Shown: piece by piece, positions 3,130-18,645 of the stretch
How the letters are laid out: every line of letters starts with the position of its first letter
How positions within the stretch are numbered: the first letter of the stretch is position 1
Source: a virus
Direction: 5' to 3' (one strand)
Length of the DNA stretch: 23,412 nt
IMG/VR virus record: IMGVR_UViG_3300030103_001047
Span: 8,014-31,425 of that record
Notes under the pieces: generated by a model
The model's database searches: none
The model's input: the letters and a program-made list of their open reading frames with translations, nothing else
Told to the model about the DNA's origin: nothing
Translations under genes and position numbers: made by a program

Positions 3130-3131
3130 AT

Positions 3132-4387: not shown

Positions 4388-4411
4388 AATTAAAATGCAA
4401 TTAATAAAAGG
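4366..4411 (+). repeat. Repeat at the junction of the two amino-MTase genes
   Basis: TTAAACTAAAA occurs twice in tandem around the stop of the first copy, and the segment 4391-4411 (4 nt before the ATG plus the first codons) is identical to 3451-3471 before the first copy. This marks the boundary of the tandem gene duplication. Confidence 0.65.
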
Positions 4412-5120: not shown

Positions 5121-5121
5121 A

Positions 5122-5131
5122 ACGTTATATA
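5122..5131 (+). promoter_or_regulatory. ACGTTATATA motif, copy 1, before terminase genes
   Basis: Exact ACGTTATATA (followed by A) in the gap between the second amino-MTase and the small terminase gene. It lies 25 nt before the preferred ATG (5157). This is the only copy that would leave a 5' leader, unless TTG 5133 is the true start. Interpreted as a phage promoter element by comparison with the other four copies. Confidence 0.55.
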
Positions 5132-5156
5132 ATTGAATAAACAAAATACTATCAAT

Positions 5157-5423
5157 ATGGATAAAAGAAAAAATAACGGAGGAAAAAGAGAGGGTGCTGG
5201 TAGACCAAAGAAAGCTGATGAACTAAAACTAATTGAAAAGTTAGATAATCTAATTGACAATGATGAGGTGATCAAAACATTAGGCAAACAAATCTTCAAG
5301 GGTGATTCACGAGCAATGTCTTTATACTTTGGTTATAGATATGGTAAACCAAAAGAAACAGTAGACATAAATTCAAGCGAGGGTTTCAATATAAACTTTA
5401 AAGATATTATAAGGTTTAAGTGA
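5157..5423 (+). CDS. terS: Terminase small subunit
   Basis: From ATG 5157 the product is 88 aa and begins MDKRKNNGGKREGAGRPKKA. The GGxREGAGRPxK stretch is a recurring N-terminal motif of small terminase and related phage DNA-binding proteins. It is followed by a helical middle and YFGYRYGKPKETVD, which I associate with small terminases of Bacteroidota phages. The protein should recognise the packaging site and load the large subunit. A TTG at 5133 is in frame and would add 8 residues; I prefer the ATG. It is short for a small terminase, but the position directly before the large subunit with a 4-nt overlap (GTGA) supports the call. Confidence 0.78.
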   Translation: MDKRKNNGGKREGAGRPKKADELKLIEKLDNLIDNDEVIKTLGKQIFKGDSRAMSLYFGYRYGKPKETVDINSSEGFNINFKDIIRFK

Positions 5424-6628
5424 TAGATATAAACTTAAAGTACGAACCAATAAAAACATCTGATGCCAGGTATTTTATTGTAACTGGTGGGCGTGGTTCG
5501 GGTAAGTCTTATTCAATAAACTTATTGCTTTTGCTTTTAACATTTGAAGCAGGACATTCAATTCTATTTACAAGGTTTACTTTATCATCTGCATACATAT
5601 CTATCATACCCGAATTTATAGACAAAATAGAAACACTTGAACTACAAGACTATTTCTATATAACTAAAAACGAAATAATAAATAAGCTATCGGGTAGCAA
5701 GATAATATTCAAGGGTATCAAAACATCAAGTGGGGATCAAACTGCAAACTTAAAATCACTTACTAATATATCTACTTGGGTAATGGATGAAGCAGAAGAA
5801 CTTGCAGATGAAAACATATTTGATAAAATAGATCTATCAGTTAGAAACCTAAAAAACAAAAATAGGGTTATACTTATATTGAACCCAGTTACAAAAGAAC
5901 ATTGGATATACAACAGATTTTTTCAAGACAAAGGCGTACAAGCTGGTAGTAATATCACAAAAGGCAATACAACGTACATACACACTACTTATTTAGATAA
6001 TGTAGAAAACCTATCAAAAAGTTATTTAGAGCAGATAGAAAGCATTAAAACACGCAGACCAAATAAATACAAACATCAAATGCTTGGTGGTTGGTTAGAA
6101 AAAGCTGAGGGTGTAATATTTACTAATTGGTCAATAGGTGAATTTAAAAAAGTAGGTGTTTCGGTCTTTGGTCAAGATTACGGTTTTGCAAATGATGAAA
6201 ATACTTTAGTAGAAACTAATATAGATACTACAAACAAAATAATCTATTTAAAGGAATGTTTTTATTTAAAAGCACTTACTACATCACAAATTGCTGAACT
6301 GAATTTAAAACACGCTGGAAACAATTTAATAGTAGCAGATAGTGCTGAATTAAGATTGATTCACGAAATAAAAGCAAAGGGTTGTAATGTTGTTGCATCA
6401 ATTAAAGGTGCTGGATCAATAACCTATGGAATATCTTTATTGCAAGATTATGATTTAGTAATAGAAGAAAACAGTATCAACTTAATTAAAGAACTTAATA
6501 ATTATAGTTGGTTAGAGAAAAAGTCTAAAACACCACAAGATAAATTCAATCATATTATAGATGCCATAAGGTATTCTGTTTCATACCAACTACAAAACCC
6601 TAATAGGGGAACTTATTATGTTTCTTAA
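5420..6628 (+). CDS. terL: Terminase large subunit
   Basis: A 402-aa packaging motor with ATPase and nuclease domains. Walker A is GGRGSGKS (23-30). Walker B is TWVMDEAEE with Asp123 and Glu124. The nuclease half has acidic residues in the expected places: GQDYGF (Asp253), IVADSAE (Asp307) and NHIIDAIRY (Asp381). The start is GTG at 5420, overlapping the small subunit stop as GTGA; it places Walker A near residue 23, as expected. The protein cuts concatemeric DNA and pumps it into the prohead through the portal at 18642-20756. The portal is not next to it, unlike the usual order. Confidence 0.93.
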   Translation: MIDINLKYEPIKTSDARYFIVTGGRGSGKSYSINLLLLLLTFEAGHSILFTRFTLSSAYISIIPEFIDKIETLELQDYFYITKNEIINKLSGSKIIFKGIKTSSGDQTANLKSLTNISTWVMDEAEELADENIFDKIDLSVRNLKNKNRVILILNPVTKEHWIYNRFFQDKGVQAGSNITKGNTTYIHTTYLDNVENLSKSYLEQIESIKTRRPNKYKHQMLGGWLEKAEGVIFTNWSIGEFKKVGVSVFGQDYGFANDENTLVETNIDTTNKIIYLKECFYLKALTTSQIAELNLKHAGNNLIVADSAELRLIHEIKAKGCNVVASIKGAGSITYGISLLQDYDLVIEENSINLIKELNNYSWLEKKSKTPQDKFNHIIDAIRYSVSYQLQNPNRGTYYVS

Positions 6629-6662
6629 CAATTTTGTTAATTAAATAATATTTTATATATTG
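6625..6662 (+). promoter_or_regulatory. Putative promoter with overlapping 16-bp palindrome
   Basis: A perfect palindrome, TTAACAATTTTGTTAA (6625-6640), overlaps the terL stop. Its right half contains TTTTG (6632-6636). After a 19-bp spacer comes TATATTG (6656-6662), close to ATG 6668. TTTG, about 19 bp, then TAnnTTTG is the Bacteroidota sigma-ABfr promoter layout; the -7 match is imperfect. The palindrome could be an operator or part of an mRNA hairpin; there is no T-run right after it. It precedes the cluster of four small ORFs. Confidence 0.4.
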
Positions 6663-6667
6663 CACCT

Positions 6668-6823
6668 ATGAAAACAGAACTAACAGAAATAAACGAGCAA
6701 CTGAAAACTTATTTATATTCTAATAATCAAGAACAAATTGATTGTGCTGAAGTATATTTAAGAAACGTACATAGAAAATATGGAACGGTAGACATAGTAC
6801 AAATTAAAAACATAATAAAATGA
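6668..6823 (+). CDS. Small hypothetical protein (51 aa)
   Basis: The ATG 5 nt after the putative -7 element opens MKTELTEINEQLKTYLYSNN..., ending ...VDIVQIKNIIK. It is helical in character, with one cysteine and no recognised family. The stop overlaps the next start as ATGA, so the two are probably translationally coupled. First gene of a four-gene set lying between terL and the tail genes and closed by a terminator at 7232-7259. Confidence 0.5.
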   Translation: MKTELTEINEQLKTYLYSNNQEQIDCAEVYLRNVHRKYGTVDIVQIKNIIK

Positions 6824-6942
6824 AACAAAGCATAGGATCTAAATTAGGCAAAATATCAAAAACCTTAACAAGGTGTTTTTTAATATTTGCAATATGTTAC
6901 TTTGCAGGTAGAACACTATCATCAATTTTATTTAATATATAG
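6820..6942 (+). CDS. Small single-pass membrane protein (40 aa)
   Basis: A basic N-terminus (MKQSIGSKLGKISKTLTR) is followed by one hydrophobic segment, CFLIFAICYFAG, at about residues 19-30, and a short polar tail. The layout predicts one transmembrane helix with the positive N-terminus inside the cytoplasm. I do not recognise it. A membrane role such as holin-like or superinfection-related is conceivable but unsupported: no endolysin is nearby. Starts by a 4-nt ATGA overlap with the upstream ORF. Confidence 0.45.
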   Translation: MKQSIGSKLGKISKTLTRCFLIFAICYFAGRTLSSILFNI

Positions 6943-6944
6943 AT

Positions 6945-7088
6945 ATGAAAAGATTAAAGATGTTTTACGAAGCAAGATTAATTACCCACAGTATAAAACC
7001 ATATAAGGTAATTAAATTAAAGAATAATAAAGTTGCTGAACACTATGTTAATGGTGATATAAAAATAGTAGAAAATGAGTTGGGATGA
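6945..7088 (+). CDS. Small hypothetical protein (47 aa)
   Basis: Begins MKRLKMFYEARLITHSIKPY and continues VIKLKNNKVAEHYVNGDIKIVENELG. It reads as a compact, probably beta-rich small protein with a basic N-terminus. No family is recognised. It starts 2 nt after the previous stop, and its last 14 nt overlap the next ORF in another frame, fitting the tight packing of this cluster. Confidence 0.45.
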   Translation: MKRLKMFYEARLITHSIKPYKVIKLKNNKVAEHYVNGDIKIVENELG

Positions 7089-7236
7089 TTTTTTAAACCC
7101 ACACGAACAAGCAGCGTATGAATGTTACGAATGTGGCACAGAAATGCAAGAAGATAAACAATATTGTTCAACAAGTTGTTCACGAAGCAAGTATGATTTA
7201 GTAGTAGTTAGTTTTTTTTATGAGAGAAAAGGGTAA
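7075..7236 (+). CDS. Small zinc-ribbon-like protein (53 aa)
   Basis: Starts MSWDDFLNPHEQAAYECYEC. Two cysteine pairs, CYEC (17-20) and CSTSC (31-35), are about ten residues apart. This CxxC...CxxxC arrangement is that of a small treble-clef or zinc-ribbon knuckle that binds one Zn2+. The C-terminus (VVVSFFYERKG) runs into the left arm of the terminator hairpin. Function is unknown; such proteins often bind nucleic acid or host proteins, which here is inference only. Last gene of the small-ORF cluster. Confidence 0.5.
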   Translation: MSWDDFLNPHEQAAYECYECGTEMQEDKQYCSTSCSRSKYDLVVVSFFYERKG

Positions 7237-7259
7237 GCAGAAATGTTTACCTTTTTTTT
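7232..7259 (+). terminator. Rho-independent terminator after the small-ORF cluster
   Basis: GGTAAG (7232-7237) pairs with TTTACC (7246-7251), a 6-bp stem including one G-T wobble, with an 8-nt loop, followed directly by eight T (7252-7259). It overlaps the last codons of the zinc-ribbon ORF and lies 35 bp before copy 2 of the CGTTATATA motif. Confidence 0.7.
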
Positions 7260-7293
7260 ATTACCTTGCATATAGTAAAAAACATAAATAAAT

Positions 7294-7303
7294 ACGTTAT
7301 ATA
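7294..7303 (+). promoter_or_regulatory. ACGTTATATA motif, copy 2, before the tail operon
   Basis: Exact ACGTTATATA followed by A. It sits 3 nt before ATG 7307 and 35 bp after a terminator. The terminator-then-motif order is the strongest single argument that the motif marks a promoter. Being so near the ATG, it would give a leaderless or nearly leaderless mRNA. Confidence 0.6.
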
Positions 7304-7306
7304 AAT

Positions 7307-7957
7307 ATGGAAATTGAATTAATAGTACCTAATAACTTATCTGAAATAACATTAAAACAATATCAAAGGTTTGTTAAAATACAAGAAACAACTACTGATA
7401 ATCATTTTATAAAATGTAAGATGATAGAAATATTCTGCAATATAGATGCAGAAACTGTTAGAAAGTTAAGGTTAGCTGATACAGATAAAATAATAGGAAT
7501 ATTAAATAAAATATTTGAAGATAAACCACAGTTAATAGAAACGTTTAAATTAGGTGATATTGAATATGGGTTTATACCAAACCTGGAAGATATTACATTA
7601 GGTGAATATGTAGATTTAGATACCTACATTGGTAATTGGGAAAAAATGCATATTGCAATGAATGTTCTATACCGACCAATAAAAGATAAAATAAAAGATA
7701 AATACACGATCAAAGAATATGATGCAGAAACAACATCCCCATTAAATGAAATACCATTAGATATTGTATTTGGATCTATATTTTTTTTTTACAATTTAGG
7801 GATAGACTTGTCAAAAACTATGATGAATTATTTGGAAACGGAGGAGGAACAGAACTTAATGCACAAGCAAATTTTGGAAGAAAATGGGGTTGGTATCAAT
7901 CAATCTTTGCCCTTGCTCAAGGAGATATTAGAAGATTTAAAGATATCACTAAATTAA
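7307..7957 (+). CDS. Tail assembly chaperone, short form (G-like)
   Basis: The in-frame product is 216 aa. It starts MEIELIVPNNLSEITLKQYQ and carries an EYVDLDTYIGNWEKMH stretch and VLYRPI, features I associate with tail assembly chaperones of Bacteroidota phages. It lies in the expected place, several genes upstream of the tape measure. Near residue 158 the gene enters a run of ten T. The zero frame continues as YNLGIDLSKTMMNYLE to a normal end, while the -1 frame also encodes conserved-looking protein (see the 7307-8043 entry). The protein should coat the tape measure and recruit tail tube subunits during assembly. First gene after a terminator and motif copy 2. Confidence 0.75.
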   Translation: MEIELIVPNNLSEITLKQYQRFVKIQETTTDNHFIKCKMIEIFCNIDAETVRKLRLADTDKIIGILNKIFEDKPQLIETFKLGDIEYGFIPNLEDITLGEYVDLDTYIGNWEKMHIAMNVLYRPIKDKIKDKYTIKEYDAETTSPLNEIPLDIVFGSIFFFYNLGIDLSKTMMNYLETEEEQNLMHKQILEENGVGINQSLPLLKEILEDLKISLN

Positions 7958-8043
7958 CAGCACACGAATGTTTTATGATGTTATCATTTATGAAAGATAA
8001 AAGCGAAGTAGAGGCTAAACAAATTAAAAATAAATTTAAATGA
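7307..8043 (+). CDS. Tail assembly chaperone, frameshifted long form (GT-like), -1 shift at the T-run
   Basis: If the ribosome slips by -1 on T TTT TTT (7783-7789), 161 zero-frame codons join 84 codons of the -1 frame to give about 245 aa. The -1 frame reads LQFRDRLVKNYDELFGNGGG, then FGRKWGWYQSIFALAQGDI (190 onward) and HECFMMLSF, ending at TGA 8041-8043. The FGxKWGWYQSIxALAxGD pattern is one I recognise from tail-chaperone extensions of Bacteroidota phages. Between the T-run and this motif the -1 frame has no ATG, GTG or TTG, so separate initiation is not available. Fused G/GT chaperones made by programmed frameshift are a general feature of long-tailed phages. RNA polymerase slippage on the T-run would give the same product. 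Confidence 0.7.
7781..7790 (+). promoter_or_regulatory. Slippery T-run for -1 frameshift in the tail chaperone gene
   Basis: Ten consecutive T. In the zero frame they read TTT TTT TTT T, so a T TTT TTT heptamer is correctly phased for simultaneous P- and A-site slippage to -1. I see no strong stem-loop or pseudoknot just downstream. A homopolymer of this length also permits transcriptional slippage. Confidence 0.65.
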
Positions 8044-8159
8044 TTGAAAGTATTGAACATATATTAGGCACTTGTGGTGAAAGCCATATAAACATCTATA
8101 CACTTATTGTAATTAGTATTTTGGTTGGTTTAATAAAATATAAAACATATAAGAAATGA
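8040..8159 (+). CDS. Small membrane-anchored protein (39 aa)
   Basis: Starts MIESIEHILGTCGESHINIY and continues with the hydrophobic segment TLIVISILVGLI (about 21-32) and a basic tail KYKTYKK. One transmembrane helix is predicted. A CGExH motif before the helix resembles, from memory, small ORFs next to the tail chaperone in related phages; function is unknown. It overlaps the -1 frame chaperone stop and the next gene's start by ATGA junctions at both ends, so its translation is probably coupled to both. Confidence 0.55.
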   Translation: MIESIEHILGTCGESHINIYTLIVISILVGLIKYKTYKK

Positions 8160-8626
8160 GCAATCAAGGAATAAGAGGTTATTACCAATTAACTGAAACC
8201 ATAAAAGAACAACTACTTGCAGATGTAAATATCAATACAGTTTCTACTGGTGATATATCAGATGTAAACCTTAACAAACAAGATATATTTCCTTTAGGTC
8301 ATATCATCGTAAATAGCGTAGTAGCAGAAGAACAAGTATTAAGATTTAGTATTACAGTAATTGCAGCAGACATTGTAGACCAATCAAAAGAATTAACACT
8401 TGATAGGTTTGTAGGTAACAATAACGAACAAGATATACTTAACACACAATTAGGTGTATTAAATAAACTAATACAAGTTTTAAGAAAAGGTAATTTACAT
8501 AAAGATATGTACCAGCTTGAGGGCAATCCAAGTTGTGAACCTTTTTATGATAGGTTTGAAAATATGTTAGCAGGTTGGTCAGCAAGTATAGATATATTAA
8601 TTTGGAATGATATAACTATCTGCTAA
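8156..8626 (+). CDS. Putative tail terminator / tail completion protein
   Basis: A 156-aa protein. The N-terminal part is helical (GYYQLTETIKEQLLAD), then a beta-rich core with FPLGHIIVNSVVAEEQVLRFSI, and a C-terminus with LEGNPSCEPFYDRFENMLAGW and SIDILIWND. That order (N-terminal helix, probing of small numbers of copies at a hexameric ring, closing beta strands) fits phage tail terminator folds. The ENMLAGW...D ending matches what I recall of Bacteroidota phage proteins in this slot. It should cap the growing tail tube. The next gene starts at its stop (TAATG). Confidence 0.55.
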   Translation: MSNQGIRGYYQLTETIKEQLLADVNINTVSTGDISDVNLNKQDIFPLGHIIVNSVVAEEQVLRFSITVIAADIVDQSKELTLDRFVGNNNEQDILNTQLGVLNKLIQVLRKGNLHKDMYQLEGNPSCEPFYDRFENMLAGWSASIDILIWNDITIC

Positions 8627-9129
8627 TGGACTTTACTAATTTAGAAATAGCAGCTAATAGATATGCAAAATATGTGATTCAACAATCACGCACTAATTTA
8701 ACTAAAAATAAAAATGGTGGTGGTGCATTATATAATTCACTTGATTATAAAATAATTGAAGATGAATACGATATATTAGTACAATTTCTAATGGAGGACT
8801 ATGGTACTTTTCACGATCAAGGTGTAAAGGGTGCAAAGTCAGTATATCCACAAAGTAGTAAATCTCCTTTTAAATACACTAATAAAATGCCCCCCACAAG
8901 AGTATTTGACCAATGGGTAATTAAAAGAAAAATAGCACCAAGAGATAAAAAGGGTAGGTTTCTATCAAGAAAAAGTTTAAAGTATTTAATTGCAAGAAGC
9001 ATATTTGAAAAAGGATTAAAAGCAACTAATTTTTTTAGTAAACCATTTGAAAGGGGAATAAATAAATATCTAACAGACTTTGAGAATGGGTTTGTATCAG
9101 ACATAAAAAATGAAATAAAAGATTTATAA
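8626..9129 (+). CDS. Putative head-tail joining / tail completion protein (HK97 gp10-like)
   Basis: 167 aa, basic. The stretch EDYGTFHDQGVKGAKS (from about residue 57), then FKYTNKMPPTRVFDQWVIKRKIAPRD and KGRFLSRKSLKYLIARSI, resembles HK97 gp10-type head-tail connection proteins, where a G.F.DqGvkG turn and a basic helical middle are typical. FFSKPFERG near the C-terminus also fits. It would act at the neck, where filled heads dock to finished tails. It lies between the tail terminator candidate and two large tail proteins; the start overlaps the upstream stop as TAATG. Confidence 0.55.
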   Translation: MDFTNLEIAANRYAKYVIQQSRTNLTKNKNGGGALYNSLDYKIIEDEYDILVQFLMEDYGTFHDQGVKGAKSVYPQSSKSPFKYTNKMPPTRVFDQWVIKRKIAPRDKKGRFLSRKSLKYLIARSIFEKGLKATNFFSKPFERGINKYLTDFENGFVSDIKNEIKDL

Positions 9130-9132
9130 GAT

Positions 9133-10131
9133 ATGGCAAGATTAGCTTTACGCAGTCCACAATTTAAATACAAAGAAATACCAGTAAGCGGTGTAGCATC
9201 AACTATATGTCAAATTACTATTGATAGTGTTTTAAGATATACATTAATAAAAAACGTAAGAAAAAATACAACTGTAAATTTTGATATATCAGAACTTGCA
9301 AGAGATTATTTAGATATATATTACGATGCAACTTATGTACCACAACAAATAGCTATAACTACAACATTAACTAATTATAGTGGTTTAGATGGTACAGGAT
9401 TGGTTGTTGGTTCAGCAACTACTTTTACTGATACTGGATTTGAGGGTTACGGATATTTTGAAGAAGGCACTAACCCCGATTTACCAACTGCAGCCTATTT
9501 AATTTCTAAAAACCCCGATACAAACGAAGTGCAACTATACTATCCAAAAAGTGTGCTTGGTGTTTCTGCTTTTACTGGTAGAGTACCACAAACAATAGGA
9601 AGTCAAATACAAGTTATTCTTTTTGGACAAGCTGCTACTGCAATAGGTGGTAGTTACCCATCAACTATAAAAAGAATAGAATGTACTAAATATGGTGCAG
9701 GTAGAAAAATAATATTTATAAATAGATATGGTGTTCAACAAGATATATGGTTTTTCTTAAAAGAAACAAAAACACTTGCAAGGCAAAATGAAAACTACAA
9801 GGCTAATATATTAACATACCCAAGTACAAATAACCCTGCTACATATTCTATTTCTGATGCACCTAATAAAACATTTAACACAACTGCTAAACAAACATTT
9901 ACTTTAAGTAGTGGTTATTACCCACAAGGTGCTAATAATTTCTTTGAAGAACTTTTATTAAGTGAATATGTATGGTACGAAAGACCAAACAAAACAACGG
10001 GAACTGATGAGGTTATACCCGTAAAAGTAAAAAAATCATCTATACAATTTAAAACATCTGTTAATGATCGATTAATAGAATACACTATTGAGTTTGAAGA
10101 AGCATTTGATTACATAAACAATATTAGATAA
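9133..10131 (+). CDS. Tail structural protein, unknown role
   Basis: 332 aa. It starts MARLALRSPQFKYKEIPVSG and is rich in beta-prone, Thr/Ser/Tyr-containing stretches, with a central GYGYFEEGTNPDL region and a repeated pattern of short strands. The C-terminus (IPVKVKKSSIQFKTSVNDRL, then EYTIEFEEAFDYINNIR) looks like a beta-sandwich edge. I do not recognise a named family. Its place before the 722-aa protein and the tape measure suggests a tail tip or baseplate component, or a second tail-associated tube protein. No membrane segment or signal peptide is evident. The next ORF overlaps by TAATG. Confidence 0.55.
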   Translation: MARLALRSPQFKYKEIPVSGVASTICQITIDSVLRYTLIKNVRKNTTVNFDISELARDYLDIYYDATYVPQQIAITTTLTNYSGLDGTGLVVGSATTFTDTGFEGYGYFEEGTNPDLPTAAYLISKNPDTNEVQLYYPKSVLGVSAFTGRVPQTIGSQIQVILFGQAATAIGGSYPSTIKRIECTKYGAGRKIIFINRYGVQQDIWFFLKETKTLARQNENYKANILTYPSTNNPATYSISDAPNKTFNTTAKQTFTLSSGYYPQGANNFFEELLLSEYVWYERPNKTTGTDEVIPVKVKKSSIQFKTSVNDRLIEYTIEFEEAFDYINNIR

Positions 10132-12299
10132 TGCAACAAAAGTTAGTTTTATATATAGGTAATGATTTACCCGATAGTAGGGTAGACCAATTTAAAGATG
10201 AAAATGTTTCTTTTACTCAAACAATACAAAACGTAAAAGACTTAAAAAAAATCTTTACTGAATTTACTAAAACTTTTGCATTACCAGCTTCCAAAAAAAA
10301 TAATGCAATTTTTAAGCATTATTACAACTATGATATAGCCAATGGTTTTGATGCTCGTTCCAAAGTAGATGCGTTCCTGGAGTTAAATGATTTACCATTT
10401 AAAACAGGTAAAATAGCTTTAACTGGTGTTAATTTAAAAAACAATGTACCACACACATATAAGGTTACTTTTTATGGTGATACAGTTAATTTAAAAGATA
10501 TTTTAGGTGATGACCAATTAAGTAACTTAACTGAACTATCAGATTACGACCAACTATATAATTACACTAATGTTTTAGATACAATGGAAAATGAAAGGTT
10601 AAGCAATATAATTGTTCCTTTAATTACACATACAGATAGGTTATTTTATAATAGTAGTACCAGTGCAGTAGGACCTAATAATTTATATTGGAGTACTAAT
10701 GGTTTGTTTGCTGACAACGGAGTTGAATTTACACAATTTAAATATGCTATAAGATTACGGGCTATAATATCTGCAATAGAAACTGAATATCCAAGCATTA
10801 CATTTTCTAATGATTTTTTTAATGATACGTCTAATGATGATTTTGACCATTTATATATGTGGTTGCATCGTAAAAAAGGTGCAGTTGAGCCTACAGAACA
10901 AGTGCAAAGGGTTTATAATGCAGTACCTAATTTTCAACTAACATCAGCAACTGGTACGGGTGATCAAAATTCTATTATATTAAGTGGTTATTTTTTACAT
11001 CTACAATTAAATTATCCTGCTGAAACTCCAGAACAATACAGTAGATTTACTGATATTAGTATTTCATTTACACCTACCCAACAAAATACTCCGTATAGTG
11101 TTAGGGTATATAATATAACAAATGGTAATGTTGAAGTTGGTGGTTTTGTTGACCAAGTAGGTAACCAAACCATAGATTTTGATAATGATTTAGATAACAG
11201 AAGTACGTTGCTTGTTCAAATAGCTTGTGCATCAACTATTGATTTTCCTGCAGGAAATATAGAATGGTATGTTAGGTCAACACAAACTATTTTTGATTGT
11301 TGTCCTCCAAATATTATTTTCGAAAATTCTATTTATAGATATAGCAATACAAATGCTTTTAGCACTACCTTAACCATAGAATTTAACATATTAGAGCAAA
11401 TACCTAAAATGAAAATTATAGATTTTCTAACTGCTTTATTTCAAATGTTTAATTTAACTGCATATGTAGAAAATAATATTATTGTAGTACAACCTTTAGA
11501 TGAATTTTACGACAAAGCACCAAAATTACAAGGGCAAGTTGTACCAGTAAATATTGATGAATATATAGACACTACAAAGTCATCAGTAGATATTGCATTA
11601 CCTTTTTCTAAAGTTAATTTTACTTACAAAGGTGTTAAAACATTTTTAGCACAACAATTTAACCAAATAAACAATAGAGTTTGGGGATCAAGTAGTTATT
11701 CATTAGATGGGGATATTTATGACACACCAACTACGGAATATAAAATAGAAATACCATTTGAACATATGATGTTTGAAAGGTTAGTAAATCAAGCACCTAA
11801 TGGAACTATAACAGATATACAATATGGTCTTTTTGTAGATGATAACCAAGAGGCATACATAGGAGAGCCATTAATATTTTATAGTGTACCAATGGTACTA
11901 CCAAGCACAAAAATCGCAGTTAGAGATTTAGCAGGTAACAAAAATTTTATCAATCAATATTTTATACCAAGCAATAGCGTACAACTTAACCCAACTGTAA
12001 GCAAGGTTAATATACATTTTGATAATTATATAAACGAATATAGGGCAAATGACAGTGATAATGCTACTGCTTTTACTGATACTTTATTTCAAACGCAATA
12101 TAGCAATTATATAAACGAGGTGTTTAGTCCAACAAGAAGATTAACAAAAGTTACTGCATACCTACCATATAAAATATTTAGTAGTTTACAATTATATGAT
12201 AGAATAGAAATAGGGCAAAAATATTATAAAATTAATTCAATGACTACTGATCTTACAACGGGTAAAACAGATTTTGAATTATTAAATTGTGATTTATGA
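10131..12299 (+). CDS. Large tail tip / baseplate structural protein
   Basis: 722 aa. The N-terminus KLVLYIGNDLPDSRVDQFKD, followed by TFALPASKKNNAIFKHYYNY and FDARSKVDAFLELNDLPFKT, matches a pattern I have seen in large virion proteins of Bacteroidota phages. The middle (residues about 270-430) is beta-rich, like a carbohydrate-binding or jelly-roll insertion. The C-terminal third (KMKIIDFLTALFQMFNLTAYVENNIIVV) resembles baseplate hub-like folds. Function is inferred from size, beta content and location directly before the tape measure: probably a tail tip protein that contacts the host surface. It overlaps a small ORF by 4 nt. Confidence 0.6.
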   Translation: MQQKLVLYIGNDLPDSRVDQFKDENVSFTQTIQNVKDLKKIFTEFTKTFALPASKKNNAIFKHYYNYDIANGFDARSKVDAFLELNDLPFKTGKIALTGVNLKNNVPHTYKVTFYGDTVNLKDILGDDQLSNLTELSDYDQLYNYTNVLDTMENERLSNIIVPLITHTDRLFYNSSTSAVGPNNLYWSTNGLFADNGVEFTQFKYAIRLRAIISAIETEYPSITFSNDFFNDTSNDDFDHLYMWLHRKKGAVEPTEQVQRVYNAVPNFQLTSATGTGDQNSIILSGYFLHLQLNYPAETPEQYSRFTDISISFTPTQQNTPYSVRVYNITNGNVEVGGFVDQVGNQTIDFDNDLDNRSTLLVQIACASTIDFPAGNIEWYVRSTQTIFDCCPPNIIFENSIYRYSNTNAFSTTLTIEFNILEQIPKMKIIDFLTALFQMFNLTAYVENNIIVVQPLDEFYDKAPKLQGQVVPVNIDEYIDTTKSSVDIALPFSKVNFTYKGVKTFLAQQFNQINNRVWGSSSYSLDGDIYDTPTTEYKIEIPFEHMMFERLVNQAPNGTITDIQYGLFVDDNQEAYIGEPLIFYSVPMVLPSTKIAVRDLAGNKNFINQYFIPSNSVQLNPTVSKVNIHFDNYINEYRANDSDNATAFTDTLFQTQYSNYINEVFSPTRRLTKVTAYLPYKIFSSLQLYDRIEIGQKYYKINSMTTDLTTGKTDFELLNCDL

Positions 12300-12442
12300 T
12301 AAAAAATATAATTGACTTGTTACAAGTAGTAAACGGAGAAACAGAAAACATAAGAATTGCACAAGGCAAAAACAAACTTGCAGAAAAATTATCTGAGGGT
12401 ATAAAACAAATTAAAAGAGATAGAAAATGGCACAAAAAGTAG
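12296..12442 (+). CDS. Small hypothetical protein (48 aa) before the tape measure
   Basis: Starts MIKNIIDLLQVVNGETENIR by an ATGA overlap with the upstream stop. It is helical and basic toward the end (IKQIKRDRKWHKK). It ends 16 nt inside the tape measure gene in another frame. No family is recognised. Both overlaps fit translational coupling through this ORF into the tape measure gene. Confidence 0.5.
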   Translation: MIKNIIDLLQVVNGETENIRIAQGKNKLAEKLSEGIKQIKRDRKWHKK

Positions 12443-14373
12443 TTGTAGATTTTGAGTTAAAATATAAGGAAGCTGTTAAAAATCTTGATGAGTTTCAAAA
12501 AGAATACGCTAAATTAGAAAAGGAAGTTGTAAAGGCAAATGAGGAAACAGCTAAAAGTATTAAGGCAGTAGAAAAAGCATCTGCTGATAGTGCTAAAGGA
12601 ATTAAAAAAGTTGGTTTAACTATTGGTAATTTAGCAAAGGCAAGTGGTATTGTATTTTTGTTACAACAAGCATTTGAATTTGTTAGTGGTGCTATAAGAG
12701 AAAACCAAGAAGTAATGGATGCTTTAAATTTGGTATTTGAAACTGCACAAATAGTTTTTAATCAAGTGCTTGGTGCAATTACTGATATATATAAGTCCGT
12801 AACACAGACAACTGATAATTTTGATGCATTAGGGAAAGTATTAAGTGGAATATTAACACTTGCTATAAACCCACTTAAATTTTCTTTTTATGCTATAAAA
12901 TTAGGTATTCAAGAAGCTATGTTAGCTTGGGAAAATAGTTTTTTTGGTGGGAAAGATGCAGCTACTATTGAAAAATTAAATGCAGATATATTAGAAACTA
13001 AAACAAATATTGTTGAGGTAGCACAAGAATTTAAAGATGCAGGTACTGATATTATAGATAATTTTGGTGAAGCAGTAAGTGAGGTTGGTGCAATAGGAGA
13101 TACCATAGTTAAGGAATTTTCTGAAGTAAGTGTTACTGCTGCAACTGAAGTTGCAAAGTCAAATCTTGCTTTAAAAAAGTCAGCAGAAATAGCAATAGCA
13201 CAATCACGAATTGTATTAGAACAAAAAGACCGAGAAGCAGAAAAGTTAAGGCAAATAAGAGATGAGGAACGTAATAGTATTACAGATAGAATAAAAGCCA
13301 ACAATGATTTAAACAAGGTACTTGATGAGCAAGAAAAAGAAATGCTTAAAAATGCAGATACAGTATTAGCTGCTGCTCAAGCACAATTTGAATTAACTGG
13401 TAAGAATGAAGATTATGTTAGAGTATTAGAAGCACAAGCAGAAAAAGAGGGAGTACTTGCACAGATAGAGGGTTTTAGATCAGAACAAAAAGCAAATGAT
13501 TTAGCATTAAACAAAGAGTTATTAGAGTTAAGTAATTCACAATTAGAAAGTGATGCTAATTTATTAATAGAAAAGAAACGATTTAATGCTGAAACAATAG
13601 AAGATAACCTTGCAAGATTAGAAGCACAAAAGTTAATAGATGAAGAAGAAAAGGTTTTACAAGAAGCAAGGCTACAAGCAATAGTAGATGAAGCAACAGC
13701 AGGTACACAAGCAAAGGTAGATGCACAGATAGCACTTGATGAATTTATGGAACAATCAAGGCAACAAAATTTAACAAGGGATAAAGAGATTGCAGAAGAA
13801 GAAAAATTAATAGCAGAACAAAAAATTGCTATGCAACATAAAGTTTTAAATGATTTAATGACAATAGGTGGAGAAGAAACTAAATTTGGTCAAGCTATGT
13901 TAATAGCTAAACAACTATTAATGGCAAAGGAAATGATAATGGAAATTAAAGGAACATTATTTACTGCAAAACAATCTGCAACTAAAGCTACTGTTAAGGC
14001 TGCTGAAAGTGGTGTTGATGTAGCAGGTGGTGCAGCAAAAACTGCGAGTGCAGCACCATTTCCTGCAAATATACCTTTAATTATAGGTTACGCTGCACAA
14101 GCTGTAGGTATAGTATCTGCTATTAAAGGAGCATTAAAAGCTATGAAAGGCGCAAGTAAACAAAATATAACAAGTCCAAGAATAGAAACATCAAATGGTG
14201 GTGGTGGTGGCGCACCTGCATTTAATGTGGTAGGTGCAAGTGAAACAAATCAATTAGCAGATGCAATAGGTGGACAAACACAACAACCAGTAAAAGCATT
14301 TGTAGTTTCAAGTGATGTATCTACAGCACAAGAATTAGATAGAAATATTATTGAGGGTGCAAGTATAGGATAA
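12427..14373 (+). CDS. Tape measure protein
   Basis: 648 aa, the longest helical protein in the window. Residues about 8-60 are a charged coiled coil (DFELKYKEAVKNLDEFQKEY). Hydrophobic segments follow at about 68-150 (GLTIGNLAKASGIVFLLQQA, VFNQVLGAITDIY, AINPLKFSFYAIKL). A long Glu/Lys/Gln-rich coiled coil spans about 215-480. A hydrophobic, Gly/Ala-rich region comes next (AAPFPANIPLIIGYAAQAVG). The end is a Gly-rich stretch and SSDVSTAQELDRNIIEGAS. This is the standard layout of phage tape measures, which set tail length and form a channel for DNA ejection. At about 0.15 nm per residue the tail would be near 97 nm, by general rule rather than measurement. No lytic or peptidase domain is seen. 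Confidence 0.88.
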   Translation: MAQKVVVDFELKYKEAVKNLDEFQKEYAKLEKEVVKANEETAKSIKAVEKASADSAKGIKKVGLTIGNLAKASGIVFLLQQAFEFVSGAIRENQEVMDALNLVFETAQIVFNQVLGAITDIYKSVTQTTDNFDALGKVLSGILTLAINPLKFSFYAIKLGIQEAMLAWENSFFGGKDAATIEKLNADILETKTNIVEVAQEFKDAGTDIIDNFGEAVSEVGAIGDTIVKEFSEVSVTAATEVAKSNLALKKSAEIAIAQSRIVLEQKDREAEKLRQIRDEERNSITDRIKANNDLNKVLDEQEKEMLKNADTVLAAAQAQFELTGKNEDYVRVLEAQAEKEGVLAQIEGFRSEQKANDLALNKELLELSNSQLESDANLLIEKKRFNAETIEDNLARLEAQKLIDEEEKVLQEARLQAIVDEATAGTQAKVDAQIALDEFMEQSRQQNLTRDKEIAEEEKLIAEQKIAMQHKVLNDLMTIGGEETKFGQAMLIAKQLLMAKEMIMEIKGTLFTAKQSATKATVKAAESGVDVAGGAAKTASAAPFPANIPLIIGYAAQAVGIVSAIKGALKAMKGASKQNITSPRIETSNGGGGGAPAFNVVGASETNQLADAIGGQTQQPVKAFVVSSDVSTAQELDRNIIEGASIG

Positions 14374-14394
14374 ACGCAAAATTTTTAATTAAAT

Positions 14395-14404
14395 ACGTTA
14401 TATA
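14395..14404 (+). promoter_or_regulatory. ACGTTATATA motif, copy 3, before the head genes
   Basis: Exact ACGTTATATA followed by A, 3 nt before ATG 14408. Upstream is CGCAAAATTTTTAATTAAAT, which shares CGCAAA and TTAATTAAA with the stretch before copy 4. Separates the tail operon from the head operon. Confidence 0.6.
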
Positions 14405-14407
14405 ATT

Positions 14408-15289
14408 ATGAAAATAATAGAACTAATATTAGATGAGGAACAAGAGGAAACTGGAGTAGAAGCAATATCTATTGTAGAAAGTCCAGCTATTGAATCAGAT
14501 TTTATTGCTTTAAAAGACCAAGAAATAAAATTAGCTAAAGTAGATGAGGATAAGAAAATATTAATGGGTGCTTTATTAATACCTAATAAACCTATTTACA
14601 GAAATGGATCAGAGGGTGATTATTATATTTACTTTTCTAAAGATACAGTACAAAAAGCATCACAAATGTATTTAAAGAATGGCTATCAAAACAATAGTAC
14701 ATTAGAACATAGCGAAACTTTAAATGGTTTAACACTTGTTGAAAGCTGGTTGGTAGAGGATGAGGTACAAGACAAATCAAGAAAATACGGATTGAATGTA
14801 CCAGTAGGAACTTGGATGGGTGCAGTAAAAGTTAATAATGATGAAATATGGCAAGAGTATGTTAAAACAAATAAAGTTAAAGGTTTTTCTATTGAGGGTT
14901 ACTTTGCAGACAAAATGGAATCACCTAAAGATAAAATTAAAGAAGATATGTCAGAAGAAAAAATAGCACAAGAATTACTATTTAAAATAGAAAAAATAGT
15001 TAAAGGAGAAAAAACAGAATTAGGCAAAGTTGAGTTGACTATTGCAGATGAATTAAAAGATTTAATAAAAAGAGGTTTATCTATTGAAAAAAAACTATCA
15101 AGTGAAATTAATGGTTACAATGGTTTGTTAAGGGCTGGTAATGGTTTTAAAAATAAATATGCAGAACTTGTTAAAGTAGCAAAAGAAATAGGTGTGCCAG
15201 TACCACCACAGATGAAAAAACTTGAAGATTTAGCTGATGGTTTTATTAAAAAAGGTGAAGCATTAAAAAAAGTATCTAATTTATTCTAA
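14408..15289 (+). CDS. Prohead protease, XkdF-like serine protease with helical tail
   Basis: 293 aa. ISIVESPAIESDF (20-32), a GALLIPNKPIYR strand (54-65), a candidate catalytic His101 in LEHSETLNGL, VESWLVED (111-118), VPVGTWMGAVKV (131-142) and candidate Ser161 in VKGFSIEGYF are the hallmarks of XkdF-like phage maturation proteases. The N-terminal 170 residues form the protease. It should cleave the scaffold and itself inside the prohead. Residues about 180-293 are a charged helical tail beginning with KVELTIADELKDLI (207-220), which resembles the N-terminal part of the next gene's product, so part of the scaffold-like function may be fused to the protease. Motif copy 3 lies 3 nt before the ATG. 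Confidence 0.78.
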   Translation: MKIIELILDEEQEETGVEAISIVESPAIESDFIALKDQEIKLAKVDEDKKILMGALLIPNKPIYRNGSEGDYYIYFSKDTVQKASQMYLKNGYQNNSTLEHSETLNGLTLVESWLVEDEVQDKSRKYGLNVPVGTWMGAVKVNNDEIWQEYVKTNKVKGFSIEGYFADKMESPKDKIKEDMSEEKIAQELLFKIEKIVKGEKTELGKVELTIADELKDLIKRGLSIEKKLSSEINGYNGLLRAGNGFKNKYAELVKVAKEIGVPVPPQMKKLEDLADGFIKKGEALKKVSNLF

Positions 15290-15329
15290 CGCAAAGAAAC
15301 ATTAAATAAAATCATAAATATATTAAAAG

Positions 15330-15707
15330 ATGAAAAGTAGATTATCAAAGGTGTTGGGTAAAATGACAAAAGAGAATATAGAGTTAGCAAAAGTTGAGTT
15401 GGGTATTGCTCAAGATTTTGAAAAACAATACAATGATGCAAATAAATTAGTTACAAATGCATATAATGGTTCTTTTAAAATAGAAAATGCATTAAAAGAT
15501 ATGTTGGATAAATATGATGCTGCTGGTAAATCATATTTAAAAGCAAATGCAAGGTATCAAGAACTTGAAAATGCAGCAAAAGATTTAGGTGTTGATTTAG
15601 ATGGTAAATATAAAATTTATAAATCAGATATTTCTAATACTTTAAAAGAAATTGACAAATCAAGCAGAGAAATATTAAAAGCATTAAAAATGCAATTTGT
15701 AAACTAA
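15330..15707 (+). CDS. Helical protein sharing the protease tail motif; possible internal head/scaffold component
   Basis: 125 aa, almost entirely charged helix, Lys-rich and coiled-coil prone, with no cysteine. Near the N-terminus it reads AKVELGIAQDFEKQY, matching KVELTIADEL in the C-terminal tail of the preceding protease. AAKDLGVDLDGKYK (about 89-102) parallels VAKEIGVPVPPQMKK there. I infer a stand-alone copy of the protease's C-terminal module. It could act as a core or scaffold component in the prohead. No enzymatic motif is seen. It is followed immediately by the Cys-rich ORF. Confidence 0.55.
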   Translation: MKSRLSKVLGKMTKENIELAKVELGIAQDFEKQYNDANKLVTNAYNGSFKIENALKDMLDKYDAAGKSYLKANARYQELENAAKDLGVDLDGKYKIYKSDISNTLKEIDKSSREILKALKMQFVN

Positions 15708-15863
15708 ATGCAAAGAAACAACAAAACATATATACCAAGTAGAACATCACCTAAAGGTTCATCACGTGCTTGTTTATGTTGGGATACCAATACATATTCT
15801 ATTGACTGTTGTGATGGCTCTATGAGGGCGCAAGGCATTGGTGTAATAACAAGAACAGACTGA
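15708..15863 (+). CDS. Small Cys-rich phage protein (51 aa)
   Basis: Begins directly after the preceding stop. The sequence has RACLCWDTNTYSIDCCDGSM followed by RAQGIGVITRT. The CLC...Y...CCDGS..AQGIG pattern is one I recall from short ORFs near the capsid genes of Bacteroidota phages. Four cysteines in two pairs suggest metal binding. Function is unknown; a virion or head-assembly role is suggested only by position between the protease and scaffold genes. The frame is too short for many gene finders. Confidence 0.65.
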   Translation: MQRNNKTYIPSRTSPKGSSRACLCWDTNTYSIDCCDGSMRAQGIGVITRTD

Positions 15864-15886
15864 AAACGCAAAAAATTAATTAAAAA

Positions 15887-15896
15887 TCGTTATATA
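15887..15896 (+). promoter_or_regulatory. TCGTTATATA motif, copy 4, before scaffold and capsid
   Basis: TCGTTATATA followed by A; the first base differs from the other copies. 6 nt before ATG 15903. Upstream CGCAAAAAATTAATTAAAAA parallels the stretch before copy 3. It would drive scaffold plus major capsid, up to the terminator at 17544-17580. Confidence 0.58.
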
Positions 15897-15902
15897 AGTA
15901 TT

Positions 15903-16532
15903 ATGAAAGCAACCAAAATGTTAAACGACATAAAAACGCTTCTAAACATCGAGGTAAACCTTGAGGAAATGAAGTTAGAAAATGGAACTGTTATTACAAC
16001 AGACGCATTAGAAAAAGGTAACGAAGTATTTATCGTTACTGATGATGAAAAAGTAGCTATGCCAGTTGGAGAGTATATCCTTGAAAATGGTAAACTATTG
16101 ATCGTAGAAGAAGAGGGTATTATTGCAGATGTAAGAGATGTATCTGATGATGTACCAGCTAAAGAAGAAGCAGAAGAAGAACCTAAAGATGAAACAGAAG
16201 ATTTAGCAGAAGAAGCTGATGTTGCAGATTGGAAAGGTATGGAAAAAAGAATAAAAAACCTTGAAGATGCTATTGCTGATTTAAAAGCAGACAAAGAAAA
16301 CAAGATGGAAAAAGAAGATGATGCTAAAGAAGAAGAAATGTCATCTGAGGGTAAAATGAAGTCAAGAACAATTACCGAAAAATTTGAGGAAGCACCAAAA
16401 GAGGAATTAGCAGCAGCAAAACCAATCAAGCACAATCCAGAGGGAGTTTCTGAAACAAAAAATCGTGTAGAGTTTGCAAAAGGTAAATTTAGCACAACAT
16501 TAGATAGAGTATTAAATAAATTAAATAAATAA
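15903..16532 (+). CDS. Capsid assembly scaffold protein
   Basis: 209 aa, very acidic. A small beta domain comes first (residues about 15-80): LEEMKLENGTVI, EVFIVTDDEKVAMPVGEYIL, ENGKLLIVEEEGIIADV. Then a Glu/Asp/Lys-rich, coiled-coil-prone stretch (about 83-150) and a basic C-terminal end, FSTTLDRVLNKLNK. The acidic middle plus basic C-terminal helix is the usual scaffold plan, where the C-terminus contacts the capsid protein. The beta-domain wording matches what I recall of the protein before the capsid gene in Bacteroidota phages. It lies directly before the capsid gene with a 7-nt gap, and behind motif copy 4. Confidence 0.75.
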   Translation: MKATKMLNDIKTLLNIEVNLEEMKLENGTVITTDALEKGNEVFIVTDDEKVAMPVGEYILENGKLLIVEEEGIIADVRDVSDDVPAKEEAEEEPKDETEDLAEEADVADWKGMEKRIKNLEDAIADLKADKENKMEKEDDAKEEEMSSEGKMKSRTITEKFEEAPKEELAAAKPIKHNPEGVSETKNRVEFAKGKFSTTLDRVLNKLNK

Positions 16533-16539
16533 AATAGAA

Positions 16540-17520
16540 ATGGCAAATTTAAGAAAAACCGAACTTGCAACTACTGTAAATATCACGACCACCTATGCGG
16601 GACAATTTGCGGGGGAGTATATAGCAGCAGCTTTATTATCTGCATCAACTATTGATGATGGTGGATTAACTGTAAAAGCAAATATTGCTTATAAAGAAGT
16701 GATCAAAAAATTAGCAACAAGTGCAGTAGTAAGTGCAGCAAGTTGTGATTTTACACCTACATCAACTGTAACATTAACTGAAAGAATTATACAACCTAAT
16801 GAATTACAAGTTAACCTACAATTATGTAAGTATGACTTTGTGAACGATTGGGAAGCACAACAAATGGGATATGGTTTAGGTCAAACTTTACCACCTAAAT
16901 TCGCAGACTTTATGATTGCTCACGTAGCAGCAGAAGTAGCACAAAATACAGAATTATGTATTTGGCAAGGTGATACTGGTGCAGGTACTAACAATTCATT
17001 TGATGGGTTTGAAAAACTAATTGCAGCAGCAGCAGCAGCAGGTGATATACCAGCAGGTCAGCAAGTAGCAGCAGTTGGTGGTGGATTAGATGCAACAAAT
17101 ATAATTGCAGAATTATCTAAAGTAGTAGATGCTATTCCAGCAGCACTTTACGGAAAAGAAGATTTATTCCTATATATAGGTTCAGCAGCAGCTAAATTCT
17201 ATGTACAAGCATTAGGAGGTTTTGCAGCAGCAGGACTTGGTGCAAATGGTGTGAACAATATGGGAACACAATGGTGGAATAATGGAAGTTTAACTGTAAA
17301 TGGAGTTAAGATTTTTGTATGTCCTGGAATGTCTGCAAACAAAATGTATGCAGCACAAAGAAGCAACTTATACTTTGGAACGGGATTGTTAAATGATACT
17401 AATGTTGTAAAAGTATTGGATATGGCAGATTTAGATGCTTCTAACAACGTAAGAATGGTAATGCGTTTTACATCAGGAGTACAATTTGGAATTGGATCTG
17501 ATATCGTAGAATACGCATAG
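16540..17520 (+). CDS. Major capsid protein
   Basis: 326 aa. It is Ala-rich with low charge, including an AAAAAAAG run near residues 160-168. There is a TERIIQPNELQVNLQLCKYD strand region, an ELCIWQGDTGAG turn, IPAALYGKEDLFLYIGSAAA and a C-terminus RMVMRFTSGVQFGIGSDIVE. These elements (central beta strand pair, ILxG-like helix, closing strand) fit an HK97-fold capsid protein of the type found in Bacteroidota phages; no long N-terminal delta domain is visible, in line with a separate scaffold gene. It has its own strong terminator downstream, which isolates scaffold plus capsid as one transcript. Confidence 0.82.
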   Translation: MANLRKTELATTVNITTTYAGQFAGEYIAAALLSASTIDDGGLTVKANIAYKEVIKKLATSAVVSAASCDFTPTSTVTLTERIIQPNELQVNLQLCKYDFVNDWEAQQMGYGLGQTLPPKFADFMIAHVAAEVAQNTELCIWQGDTGAGTNNSFDGFEKLIAAAAAAGDIPAGQQVAAVGGGLDATNIIAELSKVVDAIPAALYGKEDLFLYIGSAAAKFYVQALGGFAAAGLGANGVNNMGTQWWNNGSLTVNGVKIFVCPGMSANKMYAAQRSNLYFGTGLLNDTNVVKVLDMADLDASNNVRMVMRFTSGVQFGIGSDIVEYA

Positions 17521-17543
17521 TAAATTAATTAATCAATAAAATA

Positions 17544-17580
17544 GGGTAGGTAGGTTATTATCTACTTACCCTTTTTTTTT
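17544..17580 (+). terminator. Strong Rho-independent terminator after the major capsid gene
   Basis: GGGTAGGTAG (17544-17553) pairs with CTACTTACCC (17562-17571), a 10-bp stem with one G-T wobble and an 8-nt loop, followed by nine T (17572-17580). Confidence 0.85.
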
Positions 17581-17596
17581 AAAACAATATAAAGAA

Positions 17597-18118
17597 ATGG
17601 CGTGTTTATTAACAACGGGTAGAAAAATACCTTGTAAAAGTGCCTTTGGTGGCATAAAAAGAGTATATTTTGCTGATTATGGTGGTATAACTGCAGTAAC
17701 AGTAGATAGTTCAACAAAAGTAGCTACAATAACTGGTAGCCCAACTTGGTTTGAATTTGATGTAAAAGGTAATTCATCTTTAGAAACTACTGTAACAAGT
17801 AGTAGAGAAAATGGGACTACATTTTATACACAAACTTTAAATTTAACATTAACATATTTAGATGCAAAAACACAAGCAGAACTACAAATACTTGCAGTAG
17901 CAAGACCATATATTGTAGTTGAAGATTATTATGGTAATAGTTTCTTATGTGGGTTTGAAAATGGAATGGAATGTACAGGTGGTACAGTAGTAACGGGAGC
18001 AGCAGCAGGAGATTTAAGTGGTTTCACACTTACCTTTGAGGGATTAGAAGAAACTGCACCTTACTTTTTAGATGCAGCAGTAACACCAGATGCAACACAA
18101 ATTGATCCAACTGCATAA
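17597..18118 (+). CDS. Major tail (tail tube) protein
   Basis: 173 aa. Begins MACLLTTGRKIPCKSAFGGI, then RVYFADYGG, WFEFDVKGNSSLETTVTSSR and ENGTTFYTQTLNLTLTYLDA. The repeated beta strands, the SSRENGT loop and a helix at AKTQAELQILAVA match tail tube proteins of the gpV/Hcp-like fold, and the wording matches those of Bacteroidota phages. The C-terminal part contains GDLSGFTLTFEGLEETAPYF. It would polymerise around the tape measure. It stands alone between two terminators, as expected for a highly expressed gene. A weak motif-like ACAATATAAA lies just before the ATG, but no clear CGTTATATA. Confidence 0.78.
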   Translation: MACLLTTGRKIPCKSAFGGIKRVYFADYGGITAVTVDSSTKVATITGSPTWFEFDVKGNSSLETTVTSSRENGTTFYTQTLNLTLTYLDAKTQAELQILAVARPYIVVEDYYGNSFLCGFENGMECTGGTVVTGAAAGDLSGFTLTFEGLEETAPYFLDAAVTPDATQIDPTA

Positions 18119-18140
18119 TTTTAATTTTAGTTAATAAATT

Positions 18141-18169
18141 AAGCATCCTTTATAGGGTGCTTTTTTTTT
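18141..18169 (+). terminator. Strong Rho-independent terminator after the tail tube gene
   Basis: AAGCATCCT (18141-18149) pairs with AGGGTGCTT (18154-18162), a 9-bp stem with one T-G wobble and a 4-nt loop, running into a T tract up to 18169. It lies 33 bp before copy 5 of the CGTTATATA motif. Confidence 0.85.
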
Positions 18170-18202
18170 ACAATAAAATTTCTACAAATTAAGTAATTAT
18201 TT

Positions 18203-18212
18203 ACGTTATATA
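18203..18212 (+). promoter_or_regulatory. ACGTTATATA motif, copy 5, before the portal block
   Basis: Exact ACGTTATATA, followed by T instead of A. 4 nt before ATG 18217 and shortly after a strong terminator, the same arrangement as copy 2. Confidence 0.6.
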
Positions 18213-18216
18213 TACG

Positions 18217-18645
18217 ATGATTATATTAACCACAAGTGCAACTGCACAAACGTTATCTGTAATACCACGAGATTACTTAACCGATTTTATTATGTCTATA
18301 CGTAATGATAGTACAAACGTAGTAAAAACATATCAAATTACGGGTGCAACACAAGTAGGTAATTATTTAACATTTACAAATATATTTAACCCTATATTAG
18401 TAGAAAATCATTTTTACGATGTAACATTAGAAACTGCAAATAGTTTTTGGAATACAAATTTTAATTTATGGCAAAACGATACTACACTTTGGAATGTAGA
18501 TGATACAAATGATGGAGTTATTTATAAAGATAGAATATTCTGCACAGACCAAGATATAGATCAAAATAATAATGACTATTATAACTTAAATAAAGGGCAA
18601 TATACAACCTACAATGGTTATGATAATACTTATATAGTAATATGA
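18217..18645 (+). CDS. Putative virion structural protein
   Basis: 142 aa, beta-rich, with many Asn, Thr and Tyr residues. The middle half reads as paired strands (MSIRNDSTNVVKTYQITGAT, VENHFYDVTL). The C-terminal half has NLWQNDTTLWNVDDTND, then YKDRIFCTDQDIDQNNNDYY, LNKGQYTTY and YDNTYIVI, a pattern I recall from structural genes in Bacteroidota phages next to the portal or neck. No named family is claimed. It overlaps the portal start by 4 nt (ATGA). Confidence 0.6.
   Translation: MIILTTSATAQTLSVIPRDYLTDFIMSIRNDSTNVVKTYQITGATQVGNYLTFTNIFNPILVENHFYDVTLETANSFWNTNFNLWQNDTTLWNVDDTNDGVIYKDRIFCTDQDIDQNNNDYYNLNKGQYTTYNGYDNTYIVI

Follow-up and report, generated by a model that had tools for sequence, protein, structure and literature searches.

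Five intergenic elements as probable late promoters for a phage-encoded ECF-type sigma factor in a marine flavobacterial phage

In phage T4, the phage sigma gp55 serves the late virion genes from promoters that carry TATAAATA without a -35 element, and gp33 and the sliding clamp are required. In phiEco32 and 7-11, a phage sigma reads a small number of well-conserved late promoters, with the motifs tAATGTAtA and tgtgatgttata, respectively (PMC4331800). Here we analyze a 23,412-nucleotide stretch of phage DNA (the window), bases 8014-31425 of the 31,425-base virus record IMGVR_UViG_3300030103_001047, in which the motif WCGTTATATA is found five times. We consider it likely, at a probability of about 0.88, that the five copies are late promoters read by a phage-encoded sigma factor of the extracytoplasmic function (ECF) type on the host core RNA polymerase (RNAP).

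This arrangement resembles that of phiEco32 and 7-11 in having a (predicted) phage sigma, a short -10-type motif conserved in a few copies before structural genes, and host-type early promoters, the last being only suggested here. The end of the 7-11 late motif, atGTTATA (gatgttata), also resembles the CGTTATA found in the window. In contrast, phiEco32 and 7-11 have enterobacterial hosts, genomes of 77-90 kb, middle promoters and an anti-sigma protein, and their motifs come without a reported fixed distance to the start codon, whereas the present phage has a clear -35 element and a predicted sigma in a separate, strongly diverged clade. T4 gp55 is likewise a phage sigma for late virion genes, but the window phage has a -35 element and no TATAAATA. 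Bacterial ECF factors (Mycobacterium tuberculosis SigL and SigH, Escherichia coli SigE and Bacillus subtilis SigW) are similar in two-domain size, predicted fold, G at -11 and -35/-10 spacing; they differ in that identity is only 12-15%, and that here the gene is phage-borne, has no recognised linked anti-sigma, and would serve virion genes instead of a stress regulon. The plan is known from phiEco32 and 7-11, while the sigma clade, the promoter class, the host phylum and the fixed start-codon distance are new here. In the open-licence literature searched, we found neither these promoters described nor a late role given to this sigma in Bacteroidota phages.

The window phage has AT-rich DNA and is of siphovirus type. 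In the large terminase it shares 56% identity with Nonlabens phage P12024L, and marine metagenomes are rich in its close relatives; it is a marine flavobacterial phage whose relatives form a wide marine flavobacterial group. A motif search of both strands recovered WCGTTATATA five times on the + strand and not once on the - strand, against 0.10 (standard deviation 0.30) expected by dinucleotide shuffling, and none of 100 shuffles gave five or more copies. The copies lie at 5122-5131, 7294-7303, 14395-14404, 15887-15896 and 18203-18212, exactly where an earlier reading made from the sequence only had placed them, and all are intergenic as it had stated. That reading had named the genes that follow as small terminase, tail chaperone, protease, scaffold and a post-tube structural gene; phrog matches and gene positions bear out these assignments, and the fifth gene stands before the portal. 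No further copy occurs elsewhere in the 31,425-base record, including the 8 kb outside the window, so that over the whole record five of five exact copies are intergenic and none is on the other strand; the intergenic share of window positions 5000-23412 is only 4.8% (P ~2.5e-7). When one mismatch was allowed, three extra sites appeared, all on the other strand, and the total was then at chance level; it is thus the exact sequence that carries the signal.

The motif forms the downstream part of a longer element. We reduced 202 motif sites from fetched relatives to 48 sites that were <70% identical outside the core. Counted from the C of CGTT, positions -18, -17 and -16 are A in 96%, 98% and 96% of these sites (P ~1e-14 per position), with neighbouring positions at ~40-55% A. 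Positions -21 and -19 favour T, and the C is preceded by ATTAAATA. All five window copies have the same AAA at -18 to -16, starting at 5105, 7277, 14378, 15870 and 18186. The proposed layout is a -35 of about TnTAAAA or CAAAA, a 15-nt AT-rich spacer, and a -10 of CGTTATATA. The five predicted promoters are as follows.

5105-5131, + strand: predicted late promoter 1, TerS-TerL block; AAA at 5105-5107, -10-like CGTTATATA at 5123-5131; predicted +1 at ~5133-5135; ATG at 5157
7277-7303, + strand: predicted late promoter 2, tail chaperone to tape-measure block; AAA at 7277-7279, CGTTATATA at 7295-7303; predicted +1 at ~7305-7307; ATG at 7307
14378-14404, + strand: predicted late promoter 3, protease; AAA at 14378-14380, CGTTATATA at 14396-14404; predicted +1 at ~14406-14408; ATG at 14408
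15870-15896, + strand: predicted late promoter 4, scaffold and major capsid block; AAA at 15870-15872, CGTTATATA at 15888-15896; predicted +1 at ~15898-15900; ATG at 15903
18186-18212, + strand: predicted late promoter 5, g18217, portal and tail block; AAA at 18186-18188, CGTTATATA at 18204-18212; predicted +1 at ~18214-18216; ATG at 18217

The spacing of the parts is specific: the pattern AAA-N8-TTAA-N-W-A-CGTTATATA-N3-ATG matches at least 120 viral-contig stretches, while a control pattern with the same letters at the wrong spacing matches only 3. The sequence-only reading had seen no shared -33 element, which the AAA in all five copies contradicts, and had taken TATATAA for a -10/-7 box, whereas the core to compare is the CGTT(A) of an ECF-type -10. 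The CGCAAA...TTAATTAAA stretch that it found common to copies 3 and 4 proves to be the -35 plus spacer, a local form of the element. It was right that the motif does not match the Bacteroidota TAnnTTTG box: the late promoters contain no TAnnTTTG, and the -33 TTTG / -7 TAnnTTTG of the Bacteroidota primary-sigma promoter is absent from all five. Upstream of the open reading frame (ORF) at 15330, positions 15289-15329 contain a CGCAAA resembling the -35 of copies 3 and 4 without CGTT, possibly an eroded promoter.

The element keeps its place in relatives. For an unbiased orthologue count, we used only relatives fetched by terminase or sigma similarity, many of which share ancestry so that their counts are not independent, and sought CGTTATA within 60 nt before the start. 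It precedes the chaperone gene in 50 of 50 relatives, with 12 nt from C to ATG in 47, and the protease gene in 12 of 12 (12 nt in 11). Before the scaffold gene it is found in 6 of 6, mostly at 15 nt, and before TerS in 51 of 57, at 33-41 nt. Starts of operon-internal genes were preceded by CGTTATA in 0 of 189 cases. An earlier count that included motif-fetched loci was kept only for orthologues of g18217, the first gene of the fifth block, which is also covered by whole records: 27 of 27 sequences have CGTTATA, at 13 nt in 21. The C-to-ATG interval is fixed in length and variable in its nucleotides. The final two letters differ among the more diverged genomes (CGTTATAca, -at, -tt), which leaves CGTTATA as the core. 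Near-complete relatives mostly carry 4-6 motif copies, nearly all on one strand. In the TerS leaders of some relatives (L065:3202, L071, L072 and L084), a perfect inverted repeat, TTGATTAATCAA, directly follows the predicted start site.

A sigma-like ORF encoding 159 amino acids (aa) lies 1.5 kb to the left of the window (G000:6074-6553), in a replication gene cluster, and starts at an ATPase gene's stop codon. Relatives occur in at least 598 contig stretches. As judged from profiles and a structure model, its product is very probably an ECF-type sigma factor. A 34-row alignment (A1) contains a region-2-type motif, EDIVQEMYIKI ... NYYYIFKTLRTLFYDLKRK, and a C-terminal helix-turn-helix-like part. 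All 34 members match at least one NCBIfam ECF model weakly (E <0.1), 23 of the 34 match PF04542 (region 2) at E up to 0.1, and the P12024L orthologue exceeds the cut-off of this family (25.2 bits, E 1.4e-5). The structure model (pLDDT, a per-residue confidence score, 85) has helices at 2-78 and 99-158 and a low-confidence linker at 80-97, and the modelled protein conforms to the two-domain ECF plan of region 2 and region 4 with a short linker (~160-200 aa). Approximately the first 30 fold matches in the PDB are ECF sigma factors or their complexes, at probabilities near 1.0, including SigL (6dv9, E 8e-4, probability 1.00), and the viral fold matches include proteins annotated Sigma70-ECF. A phmmer search of the PDB with the single protein gave nothing useful, and tblastn of the window phage sigma against named phages gave no match. 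Directly 3' of the sigma gene, a 70-aa protein (L087:6690-6902) is present in 7 of 7 window-type relatives checked, a possible switch cofactor.

Motif and sigma gene are inherited together. The gene is present in 18 of 20 records picked via terminase or sigma loci, the other two being contigs of 20 and 16 kb. Among 19 records picked by the promoter pattern alone, 15 have it, including 8 of the 9 longer than 25 kb; the ninth, G026, follows the layout of G023 with a 1,641-base offset and ends before the position of the sigma gene in G023. Records without the gene are mostly short fragments, and near-complete relatives mostly have one copy each of a sigma-like gene. Promoters and sigma are retained in G008, G011 and G012, whose terminase is a replacement (29-31% identity). 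The element thus shows what is typical of phage-sigma promoters, namely few conserved copies in one orientation before structural genes and a sigma gene that co-occurs with the motif. The suggestion that this is a phage-specific promoter for a phage-encoded polymerase factor is strongly supported by the relatives and by the sigma gene outside the window.

The Nonlabens phages P12024L and P12024S (Inhavirus) allow a comparison between groups. P12024L gp35, annotated as 'hypothetical, Sigma-70 region 2', is a diverged orthologue of the window sigma (profile E 5e-8), and tblastn with gp35 against named phages found Nonlabens phages only. If gp35 is a late sigma, P12024L should have a related but different promoter. 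Such a promoter was found: TATAAAACAAA, ~13 nt, CGTTAATA and then ATG, before late genes. P12024L and six related contigs together contain 21 TATAAAACAAA-N13-CGTTAATA sites, most of them with exactly 12 nt from C to ATG, and one site of this type directly follows the sigma gene. These phages share with the window phage the orthologous sigma and late genes, an A-rich -35, a CGTTA -10 and an ATG 12 nt after the C; they differ in the -10 (CGTTAATA), the -35 (TATAAAACAAA) and a sigma that is only 24% identical. The papers searched contained no description of a promoter role for these sites. The -10/-35 pairs sort by sigma:

gp35: CGTTAATA / AAAACAAA
window-type sigma: CGTTATATA / TAAAA

From the co-occurrence of the two, and their co-variation between the two groups, we infer that the sigma contacts this promoter.

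We propose that the sigma, encoded in the replication cluster with host-type promoter candidates, would be made early, and that the host RNAP core carrying it would recognise the AAA -35 and the CGTTATATA -10. Once made, the sigma would activate five late units: terminase; chaperone to tape measure; protease; scaffold, capsid and tube; and portal, tail and lysis. On the + strand, TTG-N17-22-TAnnTTTG occurs four times in the early region, two of them in or near intergenic gaps, and is absent from the late region; because the early matches are poorly conserved across relatives, host-type early promoters are only suggested.

The position of the element also bears on translation. The gaps of 3-6 nt to the ATG that had been reported for four copies measure 3, 3, 6 and 4 nt for copies 2-5. 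The ECF factor SigL uses a -10 at -12 to -7 in which G at -11 matters most, and it works best with a 6-nt spacer (PMC6372665); with the C taken as -12, this spacing predicts +1 at 10-12 nt after the C. Three or four of the five units have their start codon 12-15 nt beyond the C, and their transcripts would begin ~0-5 nt from the AUG. Two or three late units would be leaderless or nearly so, one would have a leader of ~3-5 nt, and the TerS unit would have one of ~20-30 nt (~20 nt in the window, to the ATG at 5157). TA-like signals located ~12 nt ahead of starts have, in many bacteria, been interpreted as promoters of leaderless transcripts (PMC3160421). The sequence-only reading of leaderless or near-leaderless mRNAs thus survives as a prediction for most blocks, fails for copy 1 (TerS), and applies less well to copy 4 (scaffold). 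That the sigma fixes the start on the start codon itself, yielding true leaderless mRNAs from the main virion operons late in infection, in hosts where leaders are the norm, and changing the mode of translation initiation together with the promoter class, is a tentative proposal to which we give slightly less than even odds.

Several observations weigh against a phage ECF-type sigma acting at these promoters, or against leaderless transcripts from them. The window phage sigma reaches only 13.8 of 24 bits against PF04542, under the Pfam cut-off, and PF08281 (region 4) gave no match at E up to 1, so that region 4 rests on the structure model. Comparison with ECF structures gives modest whole-chain TM-scores (fold similarity) of 0.35-0.51, a result that probably reflects uncertainty in how the two domains sit relative to each other. 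Leaderlessness is not a rule even here, since leaders of a few to ~20 nt are expected for the scaffold and terminase units, and in Flavobacterium johnsoniae 87% of transcripts have leaders >10 nt (PMC6847099), so leaderless late mRNAs would be unusual for the host. Finally, the counts over relatives weigh less for their shared ancestry.

Many ECF sigma factors are encoded by Bacteroidota themselves, and an AT-rich, promoter-sized element could be read directly by host RNAP with the primary or another host sigma, any likeness to a phage-specific class being superficial. We regard this as improbable: the late promoters lack the TAnnTTTG of the Bacteroidota consensus TTTG / TAnnTTTG (PMC6847099), the + strand has TTG-N17-22-TAnnTTTG in the early region and not in the late one, and the motif is co-inherited with the phage sigma and has changed along with it in Inhavirus. 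Many relatives have a host-type TAnnTTTG ~92 nt ahead of the chaperone gene; it was considered as a late promoter and rejected, given its position near the end of the preceding gene and before the terminator of that gene. A search for a single-subunit phage RNAP (PF00940) found none, a weak negative since the control also gave no match.

Three further explanations were considered. The copies might be operators for a phage DNA-binding activator or repressor, such as the DnaA domain IV protein encoded at 1691-2269 (PF08299 Bac_DnaA_C, E 4.5e-11), given that TTAT occurs both in the motif and in DnaA boxes. A fixed 15-nt AAA spacing, a single orientation and a fixed 12-nt distance to the ATG would be superfluous for a plain operator, and we think this explanation quite unlikely. 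The protein lacks the DnaA ATPase and was not found in several relatives; the DnaA-box reading was rejected because G006, G011, G012 and G017, all motif-bearing, have no detected DnaA_C homologue. Still less probable is an AU-rich, Kozak-like mRNA element for translation initiation, which would fit the motif's adjoining the ATG in four cases and the tuning of initiation by A/U directly before the AUG in Bacteroidota, which are without Shine-Dalgarno sites (PMC6847099): none of the 189 operon-internal genes tested, the highly expressed capsid gene included, has it, the invariant CG and distant AAA are kept, and at TerS it stands 33-41 nt from the ATG. The initiation-region or repressor-binding alternative raised from sequence is disfavoured. 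Linker homology for inter-phage recombination, with no direct role in expression, is suggested by the location of the copies at block borders and by the exchange of blocks such as terminase; we give it hardly any weight, since flanks and gene order leave the two-part spacing and fixed ATG distance unexplained and the core is kept while flanks diverge freely. Such a role is at most a side effect.

The genes that open the late blocks are the following.

5157-5423, + strand: block 1, small terminase-like (phrog_38011), then the large terminase at 5420-6628 (TerL, phrog_3717)
7307-7957, + strand: block 2, tail assembly chaperone-like (phrog_32199), probable frameshift extension to 8043
14408-15289, + strand: block 3, head maturation protease-like (phrog_34096, phrog_15223)
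15903-16532, + strand: block 4, scaffold-like (phrog_24921 and position before the capsid gene at 16540-17520)
18217-18645, + strand: block 5, g18217; the portal gene at 18642-20756 is next (phrog_33693)

A program-made ORF list starts TerS at the TTG at 5133; as that frame contains stops in some relatives, this is probably not the true start. The distance from copy 1 to the TerS ATG is 25 nt. The chaperone-like ORF has a T10 run near 7780 and an overlapping second frame that extends 28 codons beyond its stop. Nearly every relative checked has this layout, which makes a programmed frameshift likely. The interval 1019-5120, which separates the early genes from TerS, contains four methyltransferase-like ORFs with orthologues at this place in few relatives.

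A terminator had been proposed before two of the copies. That before copy 5 passed a terminator scan, whereas the one before copy 2, a hairpin GGTAA...TTACC-T8 at ~7233-7262, was seen by eye and falls below the scan threshold.

18141-18162, + strand: intrinsic terminator (scan), 9-pair stem then T8, at the end of the tube gene unit and directly before promoter 5

A further strong terminator at 17543-17572, between the capsid and tube genes, has no late promoter after it; the tube gene would therefore rely on read-through.

These results name a predicted transcription switch for an abundant and little-studied group of ocean phages, and give a 'hypothetical protein' family from hundreds of marine contigs a predicted role as late sigma, with a known promoter. 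Late operons in metagenomic phage contigs could thereby be annotated by sequence alone. The late units would also provide a natural test case for leaderless translation in Bacteroidota, and the pair of sigma and promoter may be ready for use in flavobacterial genetics, where usable orthogonal promoters are few.

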